The translations under genes and the position numbers were made by a program. The notes beneath the pieces were generated by a model. The model worked only from the letters and a program-made list of their open reading frames with translations, ran no database searches and had not been told where the DNA came from. From Syntrophomonadaceae bacterium (lineage in GTDB: Bacteria; Bacillota; Syntrophomonadia; Syntrophomonadales; DTU052), in the NCBI GenBank assembly GCA_012729505.1, contig JAAYDA010000010.1:1-48304 (forward strand): a DNA stretch of 48,304 bases. Reading direction: 5' to 3'. Below are positions 1-48,304 of the stretch, piece after piece. The number at the start of each line of letters is the position of its first letter. Position 1 is the stretch's first letter.

Positions 1-219
1 TAAACGGCTAGTTATACAGTTTATTTCAGGCGCGTGCGAATTTTTGGCCTGCGGCCAAACGCACATGCGTCGATTATACCATTGAAGCTACGCTTCTATG
101 GTATAACAGCCGTAAACGGCAAGTTATACAATTTATTTCAGGCGCGTGCGAATTTTTGGCCTGCGGCCAAACGCACATGCGTCGATTATACCATTGAAGC
201 TGCGCTTCTATGGTATAAT
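1..219 (+). repeat. Tandem hairpin-rich repeat, two units of about 112 bp
   Basis: Two near-identical units start at 1 and 113. Each carries a linker around TAAACGGC, a core TTTATTTCAGGCGCGTGCG, a palindrome TTGGCCTGCGGCCAA, and a hairpin whose arms are ATTATACCATTGAAGC and GCTTCTATGGTATAA. The linker between the units is itself a hairpin (GTATAAC...GTTATAC around GCCG TAAA CGGC). The first unit is cut by the window edge. The array lies directly upstream of the nucleotidyltransferase gene and ends in TGGTATAAT, an extended -10 promoter. An inverted relative occupies 48178-48304. I do not recognise the family. Confidence 0.85.
211..219 (+). promoter_or_regulatory. Extended -10 promoter inside repeat
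   Basis: The last arm of the second repeat unit reads TGGTATAAT, a TGnTATAAT extended -10 box. Transcription would start near 226 and run into the gene at 256. No good -35 sits 17 bp upstream, as is common with extended -10 promoters. The role is inferred from sequence only. Confidence 0.45.
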
Positions 220-255: not shown

Positions 256-2877
256 TTGGATATTATTGTTTCACATAACAATTTAGACTTTGATGGATTA
301 GCTTCAATGGTGGCAGCGGGAAAACTTTTTCCTCGGGCAATTCCGGTTGTGTCGGGGACCTTGAGCAAAAATGTCCGTAAGTTCATGGGGCTTTACAAAG
401 ATAGCCTGGTTTTCAAGCTGCCAAATGAAATAGATTTGGAGAAGGTGGAACGGGTAATCGTGGTGGATACCCGCAATCTTAATCGTTTAGGGGCCCTTAA
501 AGTGCTGGGTGAAAGGGAACCGGAGTATATCGTATTTGATCATCATCCCAGTGGGTCTGGCGATTTGGTGGGGATAATCAATGAAATACATAAGGTAGGA
601 GCAACCACCACTATTTTGGTGGAGAAAATCCGGGAAAAAGGAATAAATCTGACCCCGTTTGAAGCAACGATTTTGGCCTTGGGAATCTATGAAGATACCG
701 GCAGCCTTCTTTTTTCATCTACTACTTCCAGGGATGCCGAGGCGGTTGCTTATCTGTTAAGCCAGGGCACGAACCTTTCTGTAGTGGCAGGTTTTGCAGA
801 GGAGCCCTTTGACAATGAACAACGAAAACTTCTGCAGGCTTTACTGGAGAATATTAAACTTTGGCGGATAAATGGGCATGATGTGGTGTGGGCTTCCAGC
901 TTGATCAGTGGTTTTGTACCCGGGTTGGATATGGTGACCCACCATCTTTCCGAGGTCGAAGCCTGTGATGCAGTTTTTGTCGCTGTCATTATGCAGGGGA
1001 AGGCTCAGGTGGTGGCCCGCAGTAAAACGCCGAATATAATGGTTAATGAGATATTGGCACCTTTGGATGGCAGAGGACATGAAAAAGCGGCATCAGCAGT
1101 AGTAAAAAAACCGGATTTAGATAGCATTGAACAAATCATTTACAGAGGGCTGGAAGAGTATGTTCGTGCCGGTCTCCAGGCCCGGGATATTATGTCCAGT
1201 CCGGTCAAGTCCATTACCCTTCAGGTTACTATGGAGGAAGTTGGCCGAACCATGTTAAGATACGGTCATACCGGAATGCCGGTAGTGGATGGAGAGGAGC
1301 TGGTGGGGATTATCTCCCGCCGTGATGTTGACAAGGCGCGGACGCACAATCTGGGACATGCGCCGGTAAAGGGCTTCATGTCAGGTGAGGTGGTGACAGT
1401 GACGCCGGACACGCCCATTTCGGAAATTCGCCGAATTGTGGTTGCAAGGGATATTGGCCGGGTACCGGTAGTCGACAATGGGCGGCTGGTAGGAATTGTG
1501 TCCCGAACTGATCTTTTGCGAACTTTACACGGGGATCATTATCCGGAAGACCATATGGTTTTGTTCAACCCTTCCGATGATGCAAGTGGGCCTGATCTGC
1601 AGGATACTATGGAAGCTCGTTTGCCCAGGCGGATCAAGGATATTCTGCAAATTGCCGGGAATATTGCTGATCTTATGGAGGTTGGTGTCTATTGTGTGGG
1701 TGGTTTTGTCAGAGATTTGCTTATTGGAGTACCAAATTTTGATGTTGACCTGGTAGTTGAAGGAGACGGATTGGTTTTTGCCGAACGCTTGGCTTCCAAA
1801 CTGGGGGGCAGATCGCGTCTGCATGAAAGGTTTAAAACCGGTGTCGTCCTGCTTTCTGACGGATATAAAATTGATGTGGCAACGGCACGAACTGAATACT
1901 ATGAATTCCCGGCGGCTTTACCCAGTGTAGAAAGATCTTCGATGCGGGAAGATTTATATCGTCGTGATTTCACTATCAATACTTTGGCTATCTGTCTTAA
2001 CCAACATAGGTACGGTGAGTTAGTAGATTACTTTGGAGGGTTGCAGGATCTTCATGAGGGATTGATTCGAATTCTGTATAATCTCAGCTTTGTAGAAGAT
2101 CCCACCAGGATTATTCGGGCAATTCGTTTCGAGACCCGATTTAAATTTCGCATTGAACCTAACACACTTGATCTGGCTCGCGATGCCATTCATCGTCGTC
2201 TACTGCGGCAGCTTTCGCATAAACGCATTCGTCAGGAGCTGCTGCTGATTTTGGAGGAGCGTGATCCTATGCCGGCTCTTCGCCGCATGGATGAAATCGG
2301 TGTCTGGGAATATGTTCTGCCTGAAGTCAAGTTAGATGGAGCTTTGCGTTATACTCTGCGCAGAGTTCCCCGAGTTCTGGCCTGGCTGGCGGAAAGACAG
2401 CTGGATTTGGGTCTGCGCCGCTGGGTAGTATACTTGGAGGTGCTTTTAGCTGAGGTTAGTCTGGATGTGCTGGCTCAAATCCTGGATAGATATAAATTTG
2501 ATCGAGACGCCAACAAATCGTTACTAAATACTCCAGTCATGATTGAAATGGCCCGGGTTTTCCAGGAAAACCCGGATATGCCCATGAGTAAATTGGATTG
2601 TTTGCTGCGGGGATATTCTCGGGAAAACATAGTATTCTTTTTGTTGTGTGTGAATGAGGAGTGGGCATGGGAGAAAGCGGTTAAGTATATGGAACTAGTT
2701 AAGGAGGTCAAATCTGAAATGACTGGAAAGGATTTGATAGAGATGGGACTTAAACCGGGTCCGGTTTTTCAGGTCATCCTGGATAAGCTGTGGGCTGCAC
2801 GATTAGATGGTCAAGTTAGCTGTTATGAAGAAGAAATGGCTTTAGTCCAAAATTGGCTGGAGGAAGGATTGTTATGA
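256..2877 (+). CDS. DHH-CBS-tRNA nucleotidyltransferase (A-adding or CCA-adding type)
   Basis: An 873-residue multidomain protein expected to add A, or CCA, to tRNA 3' ends. The N-terminal DHH phosphoesterase-like part shows NNLDFDG (about residue 8), VDTRNLNRLG (about 70) and FDHHPSG (about 94). Two CBS domains follow (about 308-430). A class II poly(A) polymerase/tRNA nucleotidyltransferase head then has GGFVRD (about 480), the catalytic pair in DVDLV (about 496), and the neck motifs RRDFTIN and EDPTRIIRAIRFE. The order matches the A-adding enzyme described from Aquifex, where a second enzyme adds CC. No such partner is in the window, so specificity is open. The TTG start at 256 has AAGGAG at 243-248 and begins the conserved DHH sequence; longer reading upstream would run through the repeat. 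It overlaps the next gene by four bases. Confidence 0.85.
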   Translation: MDIIVSHNNLDFDGLASMVAAGKLFPRAIPVVSGTLSKNVRKFMGLYKDSLVFKLPNEIDLEKVERVIVVDTRNLNRLGALKVLGEREPEYIVFDHHPSGSGDLVGIINEIHKVGATTTILVEKIREKGINLTPFEATILALGIYEDTGSLLFSSTTSRDAEAVAYLLSQGTNLSVVAGFAEEPFDNEQRKLLQALLENIKLWRINGHDVVWASSLISGFVPGLDMVTHHLSEVEACDAVFVAVIMQGKAQVVARSKTPNIMVNEILAPLDGRGHEKAASAVVKKPDLDSIEQIIYRGLEEYVRAGLQARDIMSSPVKSITLQVTMEEVGRTMLRYGHTGMPVVDGEELVGIISRRDVDKARTHNLGHAPVKGFMSGEVVTVTPDTPISEIRRIVVARDIGRVPVVDNGRLVGIVSRTDLLRTLHGDHYPEDHMVLFNPSDDASGPDLQDTMEARLPRRIKDILQIAGNIADLMEVGVYCVGGFVRDLLIGVPNFDVDLVVEGDGLVFAERLASKLGGRSRLHERFKTGVVLLSDGYKIDVATARTEYYEFPAALPSVERSSMREDLYRRDFTINTLAICLNQHRYGELVDYFGGLQDLHEGLIRILYNLSFVEDPTRIIRAIRFETRFKFRIEPNTLDLARDAIHRRLLRQLSHKRIRQELLLILEERDPMPALRRMDEIGVWEYVLPEVKLDGALRYTLRRVPRVLAWLAERQLDLGLRRWVVYLEVLLAEVSLDVLAQILDRYKFDRDANKSLLNTPVMIEMARVFQENPDMPMSKLDCLLRGYSRENIVFFLLCVNEEWAWEKAVKYMELVKEVKSEMTGKDLIEMGLKPGPVFQVILDKLWAARLDGQVSCYEEEMALVQNWLEEGLL

Positions 2878-6702: not shown

Positions 6703-6857
6703 GAAGACCTCCTAGAAGGATAGGGAAGGTTTGGCCAAGATCAGTTTTCAGGCCGACCTTATCTAATTATACAGTACCGGCCTTTTTTGAACACCTTATT
6801 CTTAAGAGGATGGGTCAATGATCAGGAAAATGTCATGGTGGGACTAAGTATCTTACA

Positions 6858-6896
6858 AGAGATTTGGCTCCCGGCTTCGACTCGGATTGAATTCCA
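6858..6896 (-). repeat. Dispersed repeat fragment, copy A
   Basis: A 39-bp segment starting AGAGATTTGGCTCC and ending TTGAATTCCA. About 31 of 39 positions match the inverse of 43066-43104 without gaps. In one frame on the minus strand it would read WNSIRVEAGSQIS, against WNSYRVEAGAQIS at the other site, so it may be a relic of a coding or structured mobile sequence. Confidence 0.5.
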
Positions 6897-7121
6897 CTTG
6901 CCTCCCGGAATGAGAACCGGCAACCTCAACTGCTCAGGTTTGGCCTCCGAGCAGCACACCGCCAATTCGCCCTCCATGGCTCAGGAGGCGGACTCAGGAC
7001 CTCCTGTCCTTCGGCTGCTCTGCTGCCTCACCTTCGCAGGAGTTTGTTCGGTCCTCATCCCAACGGTCGCACGTTAGAATTCATCCCGTGTCTCCGGCAC
7101 CTAGCTTCCCAATTGCGAGGA

Positions 7122-17564: not shown

Positions 17565-17684
17565 GGGCAAATCACCTCTTTGTCAGAGATTAATCATCAT
17601 TCCTATTATCACCTGAATGAAGGGGGCTATGTTCATTAATATTATACCTGGTAGTAATTCATTGTCGATAATGCCTGTTTTTAT

Positions 17685-17815
17685 CCGATGACTAATCTGC
17701 CCTAAGACCCCCGCTTCTATAGGCGGCGGGCGCCCAAGGGCAGTTAAGTCCCTGGATTCGTGCGACTAAGATTCAGATGGAATCAAAACTCCATCTGAAT
17801 CAAGTCTTACTTTAT
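17685..17815 (+). ncRNA. Structured dispersed element, copy 1 of 3
   Basis: A 131-nt element from CCGATGACTAATCTGCCC to CAAGTCTTACTTTAT. It has an outer stem CTGCCCT/AGGGCAG enclosing a CCCGC...GGCGGG hairpin, then a 12-bp hairpin GATTCAGATGGA / TCCATCTGAATC. TTTAT precedes it and also ends it. Other copies are at 36628 and 44524, all on the same strand, in non-coding gaps. Resembles the non-coding ends of IS200/IS605-type elements, but no transposase or TnpB is present. RNA versus DNA function is unresolved. It lies about 40 bp upstream of the first DAHP synthase gene. Confidence 0.7.
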
Positions 17816-17853: not shown

Positions 17854-18693
17854 ATGATACCTTACAAGTTAGCGGTGCGAAAGGATTCCAGCACTATTAT
17901 TCAAATATCCTGCCAGGGAAGGCTCTGTTTGATCGGAGAAGGAAATCTGACGGTTATTGCCGGACCGTGTGCGGTAGAATCGGAAGAAAGTATCCTGATT
18001 AATGCTGCTCTGGTAAAAAAAATGGGCGCCCATATTCTGAGAGGCGGGGCATATAAGCCGCGAACTTCACCCTATTCTTTTCCTGGATTGGGAGAGGAGG
18101 GATTGAAGTATCTGGCCTTGGCCAAAAGGGAAACCGGCTTGCCGGTTGTTACAGAGGTTCTGGATGTCAGGGATATTGAGAAGGTTATGGAAGTAGCTGA
18201 TCTGTTACAGGTGGGAAGCCGCAATATGCAAAACTTCCCGTTGCTTCAGGAGTTGGGCCGCCTCAAGGTTCCGGTAGTGTTGAAACGTGGTTTTGCCGCT
18301 ACAGTTGAGGAATGGCTTTTGGCAGCGGAATATATTATGTCAGGTGGTAATCATCAGGTTATTCTATGTGAGCGGGGGATCAGAACTTTTGAAAGCTCTA
18401 CTCGCAATACTGTTGACCTGGGTGTGGTGCCGCTGATAAAAGAGCTTAGTCATCTTCCGATAATTGTTGATCCCAGCCATGGGACAGGCAGATGGCAGAT
18501 GGTTCGTCCCATAGCCAAAGCGGCTATTGCCGCAGGTGCGGATGGAATAATGATCGAAGTTCATCATAATCCCCGGGAGGCTTTATCAGATGGTGACCAG
18601 TCTTTGAACCCGCAGAACTTTGCAAGGCTGATGACAGAGGTGGGCAGGATAGCTGAGATGGAGGGCAAGAGGGGAGTAAGTTGTAAGTTGTAA
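17854..18693 (+). CDS. aroF: 3-deoxy-7-phosphoheptulonate synthase (short form)
   Basis: A 279-residue DAHP synthase of the AroF/KDOPS-like (type I-beta) group, condensing PEP and erythrose-4-phosphate. Motifs: [73 protein letters not shown] and IEVHHNP. It lacks the N-terminal ferredoxin-like (ACT-type) regulatory domain that the next gene has; its first 30 residues are of another kind. Loss of that domain usually means loss of feedback inhibition by Tyr/Phe. The last codons and stop lie in a heptanucleotide repeat. Confidence 0.93.
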
Positions 18694-18715
18694 GTTGTAA
18701 GTTGTAAGTTGTAAG
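18676..18715 (+). repeat. Heptanucleotide tandem repeat GTAAGTT
   Basis: Five exact units of GTAAGTT run from 18676 to 18710, followed by GTAAG. The stop codon of the first DAHP synthase lies in unit 3. Since 7 is not a multiple of 3, the array reads V-S-C-K-L-stop in this frame, and changes in copy number above three units would not alter the protein. Confidence 0.9.
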
Positions 18716-36601: not shown

Positions 36602-36627
36602 GTGCAGTGCTTCCATAGAGATTTTAT

Positions 36628-36758
36628 CCGATGACTAATCTGCCCTAAGAACCCCGCCTCTATAGGCGGCGGGTGCCCAAGGGCAGTTAAGTCCCTGGAT
36701 TCGTGCGACTAAGATTCAGATGGAGTCAAAACTCCACCTGAATCAAGTCTTACTTTAT
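36628..36758 (+). ncRNA. Structured dispersed element, copy 2 of 3
   Basis: 131 nt, the same length as copy 1 at 17685 and differing at few positions. The right hairpin reads GATTCAGATGGAGT / ACTCCACCTGAATC. The internal hairpin CCGCCT CTAT AGGCGG is perfect. TTTAT precedes (36623-36627) and ends the element (36754-36758). It lies 26 bases after the spoIVA stop, on the same strand. A role as a spoIVA terminator is possible but copies 1 and 3 do not follow a + strand sporulation gene. Confidence 0.7.
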
Positions 36759-42892: not shown

Positions 42893-42970
42893 CGGGGCGT
42901 AGCTCAGCTTGGATAGAGCGCTTGCTTGGGGTGCAAGAGGCCGCTAGTTCAAATCTAGTCGCTCCGACCA
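42893..42970 (+). tRNA. tRNA-Pro, anticodon GGG
   Basis: A 78-nt gene with encoded CCA. The acceptor is CGGGGCG / CGCTCCG, the D arm GCTC...GAGC, the anticodon stem CTTGC / GCAAG around loop TTGGGGT (anticodon GGG, reading CCC and CCT), and the T arm GCTAG TTCAAAT CTAGT (one G-T pair). A terminator follows at 42979. Confidence 0.96.
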
Positions 42971-43104: not shown

Positions 43105-43381
43105 ATTTAGATATTGTACCTTCCGTCTGTCCAACATTACATTTTCTCTGATCATTGACACCACTTCCAATTATGAAATCCCATTATTTCCGCCAGATTA
43201 GTGCTCATCCTATGGGAGCAGTATATAAAACCGGAAATGATTGATTAGAGAACAATGTTTGGAGATGAGAAATTTCTGTTTCACAGGACAGGAGATAGTA
43301 AGCAACAGAAGGTAACGAGCGGCCGAATCAGGGCGAACCATATTTGGGATACTAACCAAAAACCCTAAGGAGGCTATAAGA

Positions 43382-44506: not shown

Positions 44507-44523
44507 AAACGTTTGTTGCTGAT

Positions 44524-44632
44524 CCGATGACTAACCCGCCCTAAGATCCCCGTCTCTATAGGCGGCGGGTACCCAAGGGCGGCTAAGCTTCAGATGGGGT
44601 TAAAACCCCACCTGAAGCAAGTCTTACTTTAT
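44524..44632 (+). ncRNA. Structured dispersed element, copy 3 of 3
   Basis: 109 nt, a shorter relative of the copies at 17685 and 36628. About 22 bases after the outer stem are missing. Stems differ by paired changes: CCGCCCT/AGGGCGG replaces CTGCCCT/AGGGCAG, and GCTTCAG/CTGAAGC replaces GATTCAG/CTGAATC. The end CAAGTCTTACTTTAT is kept; TTTAT is not present at the left. It ends four bases from the apgM stop. Confidence 0.65.
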
Positions 44633-47113: not shown

Positions 47114-48109
47114 TTATTGTTGGAAATAGTTGATGCACATGGCTTCCCGAACCTCTTCCACAGTTTGCTGGGCTGCCGCTGCAGCTTTGGCGGTGCCGTC
47201 ATGGAGAATGTCCCATATGATGTCGGGACGAGTTTCAAGCTGGGTTCTTTTGCTCCGTATCGGCTTCAACAAATTATTGAGGGCGGAGGAGAGTTTGTTT
47301 TTACATGCGACACAGCCGATCTTTCCTCCCTCACATTCTTCGCGGATTAAAGGCAATTCATCTTCCGAAAATACTTTGTGATATTCATAGACACAGCATA
47401 TATCCGGATGTCCGGGGTCGGTAGCCCGAATGCGGGCAGGATCTGTTACGGCATTGCGTACCTTTTGCTGAATTTCTTTGTCTGAATCCGCCAGGAAGAT
47501 TGCATTATCCAAGCTTTTGCTCATTTTGGCCTTTCCATCCAGACCGGTCAGACGGGGGACTTGCCCAATCAACGCTTCCGGTTCGACCAAAACCGGTTTA
47601 TATAGAGAATTAAAACGTCTTACAATCCTGCGGGACAGCTCAATGTGTGGAAGCTGATCTTCACCTACCGGGACCAGATGAGCCTTGAAGGCGCAGATAT
47701 CAGAGGTCTGGCTGACAGGATAGCCTAAAAAACCGTAATTCATATCTTTAAAGCCGTGCTGGGCTGCTTCAGCTTTGACGGTGGGATTATGACGCAGTAC
47801 GTTTACCGGAACAATCAGGCCCAGATACATGGATAGCTCATGCAGTGCCGGTACCAGCGATTGAATAAAGATCGTAGATATATTGGGGTCAATTCCTGCC
47901 CCCAAATAGTCCAGGGTTATCTGGAAGATATCGTTTTTCAAGCTTTCGGGATGCTCAAAATGGGTGGTCAAGGCTTGTACATCTGCGATAATGACAAATG
48001 TCTCGTAATCCCGCTGCAGTTTTACCCGGTTATGCAGGCTGCCTACATAATGTCCCAGATGAAGCTTGCCTGTAGGACGGTCACCGGTAAGAATACGTTT
48101 TTTTGACAT
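47114..48109 (-). CDS. trpS: Tryptophan-tRNA ligase
   Basis: A 331-residue class I aminoacyl-tRNA synthetase. The HIGH-type motif is KLHLGHYVGS (about residues 16-25), and the KMSKS motif is in GKAKMSKSLDNA (about 196). Length and other segments (DLPHIELSR-like, here EDQLPHIELSRRI) are normal. AGGAGATAAG precedes the ATG. No T-box leader was seen between it and the window end; instead an inverted copy of the end repeat lies upstream with a promoter-like -10. Confidence 0.95.
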   Translation of the reverse strand: MSKKRILTGDRPTGKLHLGHYVGSLHNRVKLQRDYETFVIIADVQALTTHFEHPESLKNDIFQITLDYLGAGIDPNISTIFIQSLVPALHELSMYLGLIVPVNVLRHNPTVKAEAAQHGFKDMNYGFLGYPVSQTSDICAFKAHLVPVGEDQLPHIELSRRIVRRFNSLYKPVLVEPEALIGQVPRLTGLDGKAKMSKSLDNAIFLADSDKEIQQKVRNAVTDPARIRATDPGHPDICCVYEYHKVFSEDELPLIREECEGGKIGCVACKNKLSSALNNLLKPIRSKRTQLETRPDIIWDILHDGTAKAAAAAQQTVEEVREAMCINYFQQ

Positions 48110-48177
48110 GACTTATCTCCTTTCAAGACCAGAAAATGATATCTTACTTAGCATCAAGCTCAATTAATACCCAAACA

Positions 48178-48186
48178 TTATATCAT
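48178..48186 (-). promoter_or_regulatory. Extended -10 promoter of trpS inside repeat
   Basis: On the minus strand the end of the repeat gives TGATATAAT, a TGnTATAAT box, mirroring the left-end case. Transcription would start near 48171 and precede trpS by about 60 bases. Inferred from sequence only. Confidence 0.4.
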
Positions 48187-48304
48187 AGAAGCGTAGCTTC
48201 GATGATATAATCGACGCATGTGCGTTTGGCCGCAGGCCAAAAATCGCACGCGCCTGAAATAAAGTATATAACGATTGTTTACAGTCAATCGTTATATCAT
48301 AGAA
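48178..48304 (-). repeat. Inverted relative of the left-end repeat, tandem
   Basis: One unit of about 114 bp (48178-48291) and the start of a second (48292-48304), cut by the window end. Reading the minus strand toward trpS gives the linker hairpin ATAACGATTG / CAATCGTTAT, the core TTTATTTCAGGCGCGTGCG, TTGGCCTGCGGCCAA, and a hairpin ATTATATCATCGAAGC / GCTTCTATGATATAA. Stem changes relative to 1-219 are paired. The array ends in TGATATAAT on the minus strand, ahead of trpS. Confidence 0.85.

Follow-up and report, generated by a model that had tools for sequence, protein, structure and literature searches.

Small repeats that bring promoters to genes are known in bacteria. The Correia repeat enclosed elements, MITEs of Neisseria, are short, intergenic, palindromic and multicopy, and they lie upstream of genes with promoter sequences at their ends (PMC10969869, PMC2649163). 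BOX, from Streptococcus pneumoniae, consists of modular hairpins with a tandem module and is lineage-restricted and intergenic (PMC3049150). BrickBuilt, a MITE with a minisatellite in Porphyromonas gingivalis, has about 19 intergenic copies with internal tandem repeats and promoter elements, in restricted hosts (PMC4596501). The repeat described here, which occupies both ends of the window (the entire contig C3, positions 1–48304, one of 80 contigs), is nearest in kind to these three and is a new promoter-associated small mobile repeat. Short, intergenic, palindromic copies just upstream of genes and promoter sequences at the ends are common to it and Correia, but it has no terminal inverted repeats, forms tandem arrays, sits exactly on the native -10, flanked by a -10 at either end, and belongs to a Bacillota-like host; we know of no sequence relationship between the two, and it is by description that they are set apart. 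With BOX it shares modular hairpins, tandem repetition, lineage restriction and intergenic location, whereas its whole unit is repeated and its orientation is fixed upstream of a gene, BOX being over-represented between convergent genes. Membership in BOX was rejected, as the whole units were repeated head to tail and lacked distinct modules at their flanks, instead of showing the order boxA-boxB(n)-boxC. BrickBuilt resembles it in intergenic copies, tandem repeats, promoter elements and restricted host range, but places a 23-nt brick between a leader and a tail with inverted-repeat ends, whereas the present element has units of 106–114 bp, no such ends and -10 junctions. Such junctions were described for none of the three in the literature consulted, and to our knowledge no small bacterial repeat is inserted at a native -10 with a copy remaining to its left and right; none was found in the literature searched.

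The unit, about 106–114 bp long, was composed of a linker hairpin, a core hairpin and a terminal hairpin, in this order. In the consensus, a linker hairpin of variable stem, with a loop often ending in TAAAC or GGAAAC, was followed by TTATTTCAG, the core hairpin and the terminal hairpin ATTATAYCAT...ATGRTATAAY. Folding was far from chance, with z of -5.1, -7.4 and -6.0 against shuffles, and for the first two none of 200 shuffles was as good. Both ends of the contig lay within tandem arrays (Table 1; gene names are our reading of the translations, not the result of domain searches). The two tandem 112-bp units that a sequence-only reading of this DNA had placed at the left end were recovered by TRF (period 112, 1.9 copies, 97% matches, 1–218). 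For the right end it had proposed inverted units of 114 bp: the inverted kin was there (48177–48244 and 48239–48272, 91–96% complementary to the left units), as one full unit and a fragment of the next, and the 114-bp period itself was seen in the partner contig C42, where matches started at 167764 and 167878. Its plan of modules held for the linker, core and terminal hairpins, with the small correction that a terminal hairpin overlaps the linker after it, because TATAAY is common to both. The linker stems agreed with its description. The exchange of a C-G for a T-A pair that it described in the terminal hairpin was also present, as one clear exchange (10 against 6).

Table 1. Features of the two arrays in the window, and contig joins made through the element
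Feature	Position	Strand	Remark
Linker hairpin, 3' part (loop and 3' arm), left array	1..19	+	cut by contig end; array probably runs on in C80
Core hairpin, unit 1: GGCGCGTGCG..TTTGGCC TGC GGCCAAA..CGCACATGCGTC	29..71	+	
Terminal hairpin, unit 1, with decayed -10 (TATAAC) at its end	73..107	+	
Linker hairpin GTATAACAGCCG-TAAA-CGGCAAGTTATAC joining units 1 and 2	101..129	+	z -6.7
Core hairpin, unit 2	141..183	+	
Terminal hairpin, unit 2 (gene-proximal)	185..219	+	
Extended -10 box TGGTATAAT, right edge of element	211..219	+	in relatives, TGATATAAT lies 30 bp upstream of this start codon
Gene after left array, DHH/CBS-type, tRNA nucleotidyltransferase-like (by reading)	256..2877	+	TTG start 36 bp past -10
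trpS (by reading and relatives), gene after right array	47114..48109	-	start 67 bp past -10
Extended -10 box TGATATAAT, right edge of trpS array	48177..48185	-	
Terminal hairpin, gene-proximal unit of trpS array	48177..48211	-	
Core hairpin, trpS array	48213..48254	-	
Linker hairpin ATATAACGATTG-ACTGTAAA-CAATCGTTATAT, trpS array	48266..48297	-	array runs on in C42
Contig join C17-C35			111-base exact overlap
Contig join C26-C13			exact overlap 97
Contig join C42-C3 right end			overlap 40; longest shared stretch 104
Contig join C5-C4			overlap 34; longest shared stretch 94
Contig join C7-C32			overlap 15; longest shared stretch 106
Contig join C80-C3 left end			84 shared

In the genome of this uncultured bacterium, 31 matches to the unit were found by DNA search. 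With a covariance model of the core and terminal hairpin, the two strands together yielded 46–58 hits, of which many echoed the palindromes on the reverse strand; merging by site and contig pair left about 21 sites. The sequence-only reading had made its proposal of an undescribed repeat family depend on further copies in the genome, and at least 30 units were counted, some degenerate or truncated; the copies compared below were gathered from these search loci. At the sensitivity of these methods, no match to the unit was found in 62 other genomes of the order with the covariance model (60 of them searched by DNA as well), in exact pattern scans of viral contigs and of GTDB genome contigs, or in plasmids and phages by blastn. 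The family is thus genome-wide, apparently undescribed and lineage-restricted, and as the relatives searched belong to other genera, it may extend beyond one species.

The suggestion that the contig was broken at an abundant repeat was borne out, since 12 of 160 contig ends lay inside the element against 0.26 expected. Contigs could be paired via array-specific linkers, with one clear partner for each left-hand contig end, so that the element accounts for a set of assembly breaks and yields the six joins of Table 1. The join of C26 and C13 was independently backed, since in relatives guaB, which is on C13, lies next to the final gene of C26. Units were 98% identical within an array and 91.5% between arrays; overlapping pattern sub-matches inflate the number of pairs in this comparison, not the contrast. 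Several first units of arrays were 5'-truncated. At C54 (L017), a single core unit had an identical linker hairpin, its loop unusual, on both flanks, and at C38 (L011) a short-loop terminal hairpin stood on both sides; these two would fit arrays reduced to a single unit.

The main finding, absent from the sequence-only reading, is the link between the element and promoters. At all 17 sites with an intact right end, a codirectional gene was found 26–313 bp downstream, for which random orientation gives a chance of 0.5^17 = 8e-6, while three of the four copies lacking an intact 3' end faced a reversed gene. The right end at the intact sites was the extended -10 TGRTATAAT, except that one partial copy had a close form of it. 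At all nine readable left junctions a -10-like GATAAT, TAAAAT, TATAAT or TATAAC was followed by GGCC, GGCT, AGCC or TGCC. The last T of the -10 hexamer is nearly indispensable. It was lost, or the hexamer altered, in the internal units, which ended in TATAAC, GATAATGG or GATGGCC, and the upstream copies were likewise decayed (TATAAC, TAAAAT), whereas the last unit of every array, beside the gene, ended in an intact TATAAT. Outside the element, TGnTATAAT occurred only four times in the window, once before a gene (the tRNA at 42893). No -35 hexamer consistent among the copies was found for the element promoter. Taken together, the sequence comparisons suggest, with a probability of about two in three, a mobile repeat, non-coding, rich in palindromes and confined to one lineage, whose insertion point lies within or directly after an extended -10. 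Its orientation there is fixed, and a -10 is left at either end.

Element-free promoters from relatives of the same family, in another genus, were compared for 11 genes. At guaB, phoH, C36 and C20, the flanks of the element, once joined, aligned to the relatives, and the junction coincided with their native extended -10, which implied that insertion at the native -10 was most likely. The joined guaB flanks (TCTATGATATAAT / ACTGTGTTATAAT) scored 144–151 against 39–42 +/- 7 for shuffles; on the left, TATAAT lay 40 nt past the upstream stop codon in this genome and in the relatives alike, and the right flank continued as in the relatives (TATAATACA..AAAAAACAT). At C38 the agreement was on the right side (TATGGTATAATGTTGCCAA versus TATGGTATAATGTTCCCAA in relatives). 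For 6 of the 11 genes, the relatives carried a full TGnTATAAT within 130 bp of the start, and for a seventh they carried TGGTATAAG; random stretches of 130 bp contain TGnTATAAT in 0.4% of cases. The -10 copies on the two sides were identical at guaB and phoH (TGATATAAT) and differed at one or two places at C20 and C36. Because the left and right copies were not always identical, a true target-site duplication is not proven, and the TGRTATAAT at the right end could be part of the element itself. The guaB leader (right flank of L008) contained a tandem ACATGACAAAAAA repeat, which was single in relatives.

In these comparisons the gene-proximal -10 was intact and near its native distance from the gene, while the upstream copy had decayed. 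The remaining extended -10, which is less dependent on the lost -35, would drive the gene, and insertions would be tolerated because this downstream -10 keeps the gene transcribed. The genes thus probably keep working while the upstream control DNA is replaced. With unequal exchange, the fresh TATAAT ending each inserted unit would allow head-to-tail arrays to grow, either because units are duplicated in tandem or because the new TATAAT receives another insertion, and to be homogenised locus by locus. If this is true, the element is a parasite made harmless, the gene keeping its -10 with everything upstream swapped, and at guaB, trpS, trxB and further basic genes the arrays, as upstream regions of variable length from one family, amount to a natural promoter-rewiring experiment.

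Five genes fitted insertion at a native -10 poorly or not at all: the relatives had no matching native -10 for ilvC, C4, C39 and C54, and for trpS it lay about 25 bp further from the start. These genes bear on a classical, Correia-like mobile promoter, an element that carries its own extended -10 and does not target native ones, with the 17 of 17 orientation reflecting selective retention. At ilvC the insertion point was the stop codon of ilvN (GGGATAAT) in an operon spacer; the relatives had no evident native promoter there, and the element produced a new -10-like TGGTATAAT. Without the element, the ilvN-ilvC spacer equalled that of the relatives in length, from which we infer an empty site. 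The promoterless state of ilvC in relatives, the absence of a native -10 at that place in C4, C39 and C54 and the nearly invariant right-end TGRTATAAT, which pairs with the internal ATTATAYCAT, would all suit a mobile promoter. The exact coincidence with a native -10 at guaB, phoH, C36, C20 and C38 and the -10-like left junction at every readable site speak against it, and we regard it as rather unlikely.

How a native -10 might be found is suggested by the internal ATTATA, in the 3' arm of the linker and the 5' arm of the terminal hairpin, which would pair with both flanking -10 copies. Speculatively, and as the weakest step of the mechanism, ATTATA may guide the choice of single-stranded TATAAT in open promoter complexes. 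In the full form of this idea, ATTATAYCAT would recognise TGRTATAAT on the non-template strand, single-stranded in open complexes, and the element would insert adjacent to it; the -10 would be recreated downstream, the gene would survive, and the element's own new TATAAT would be the next target, building arrays. We consider this unlikely. In IS608, a short target adjoining the element pairs with an internal guide, and insertion is in one orientation (PMC5934647). The likeness is an analogy of working only: the putative target here is TATAAT, the guide role is conjectural and no tnpA or tnpB was detected. The hairpin ends without terminal inverted repeats, the fixed orientation beside a short target and the complementarity of internal sequences to the two flanks, which recalls the guide/cleavage pairing of IS608 (PMC5934647), would also suit an element of REP/REPIN-like kind or derived from IS200/IS605 and mobilised by a Y1 (HUH) transposase. 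This reading is nevertheless highly improbable: of the two domains searched for a mobilising enzyme in this genome, which is rated 100% complete, the Y1 transposase PF01797 gave 0 matches with positive controls, and the TnpB C-terminal domain PF07282 was not detected. Membership in REP/RAYT and IS200/IS605 was rejected on this absence. The lack of terminal inverted repeats kept the element from being filed as a MITE; the left end (TATAAT)GGCC.. and the right end ..ATGRTATAAT are not mutual inverted repeats, and the palindromes are internal.

The linkers varied widely, and most were still paired: 9 of the 16 listed had z below -3, with at most 1 in 300 shuffles as good, and pairing was weak in C63, C20 and a degenerate C35 copy. 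In linker arms hand-trimmed of loops and single bulged bases, which leans towards structure, double changes were found in 7 of 11 pairs; 1 of 500 shuffles was as high, and slid registers collapsed. RNAalifold on the MAFFT alignment missed the linker stem because the linker types do not align. Variation in the core hairpin was low, with no double change in the outer helix and one in the inner. The sequence-only reading had seen selection on pairing in the differing linker stems and had called for a covariation check. Pairing is indeed kept in the linkers, but selection is doubtful, and the core helix showed almost no covariation. Compensation alone is no proof of selection, since template switching between the arms of tandem palindromes also yields it; the linker compensation can be selection or homogenisation of the arms. 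Template switching can create and maintain hairpins (PMC8794818), and a loop inverted between identical arms is a known signature of its intermolecular form (PMC8604942); the C63 linker had identical arms and an inverted loop (TTTA for TAAA). The notion of a structured repeat as an RNA under selection for pairing is unsupported or at the least doubtful, as the unit ends at the -10 and the core is nearly without covariation. That the units form a family of structured non-coding RNAs (a riboswitch, an attenuator or a small-RNA array) with stems under selection has very little likelihood: the very stable folding and the compensatory linker changes agree with it, but the latter are explicable by template switching (PMC8604942, PMC8794818), the gene-proximal unit, ending at the -10 box, precedes the predicted transcript, and Rfam 15 at the gathering score matched only a tRNA in the window and nothing in five element loci. 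The element is most likely not an RNA.

Other repeats were observed in the window and the genome. A second structured repeat of 137 nt, with no Rfam match at the gathering score, was located at 17679–17815, 36622–36758 and 44522–44632 of the window, one copy being diverged and in two pieces; about 41 near-full-length copies (87–100% identity) were found in the genome, mostly dispersed singly. A third repeat (TTGTTGATCAGCGATAATG...GGGAGCAAGTGGAATTCACC...CCCTGATCATTGATA; L025) was found at 6815–6906 (-) and 43131–43158 (+), with 37 mostly partial matches in the genome. At C14 it interrupted the promoter element within its core and was flanked by 18-nt direct repeats GTGCGAAATTTTGGCCTG, like a target-site duplication, and pieces related to it adjoined the promoter element at C80, C42, C38 and C54. 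The heptamer GTAAGTT was repeated 5.7 times with 100% match at 18676–18715, at the 3' end of the gene at 17854–18693.
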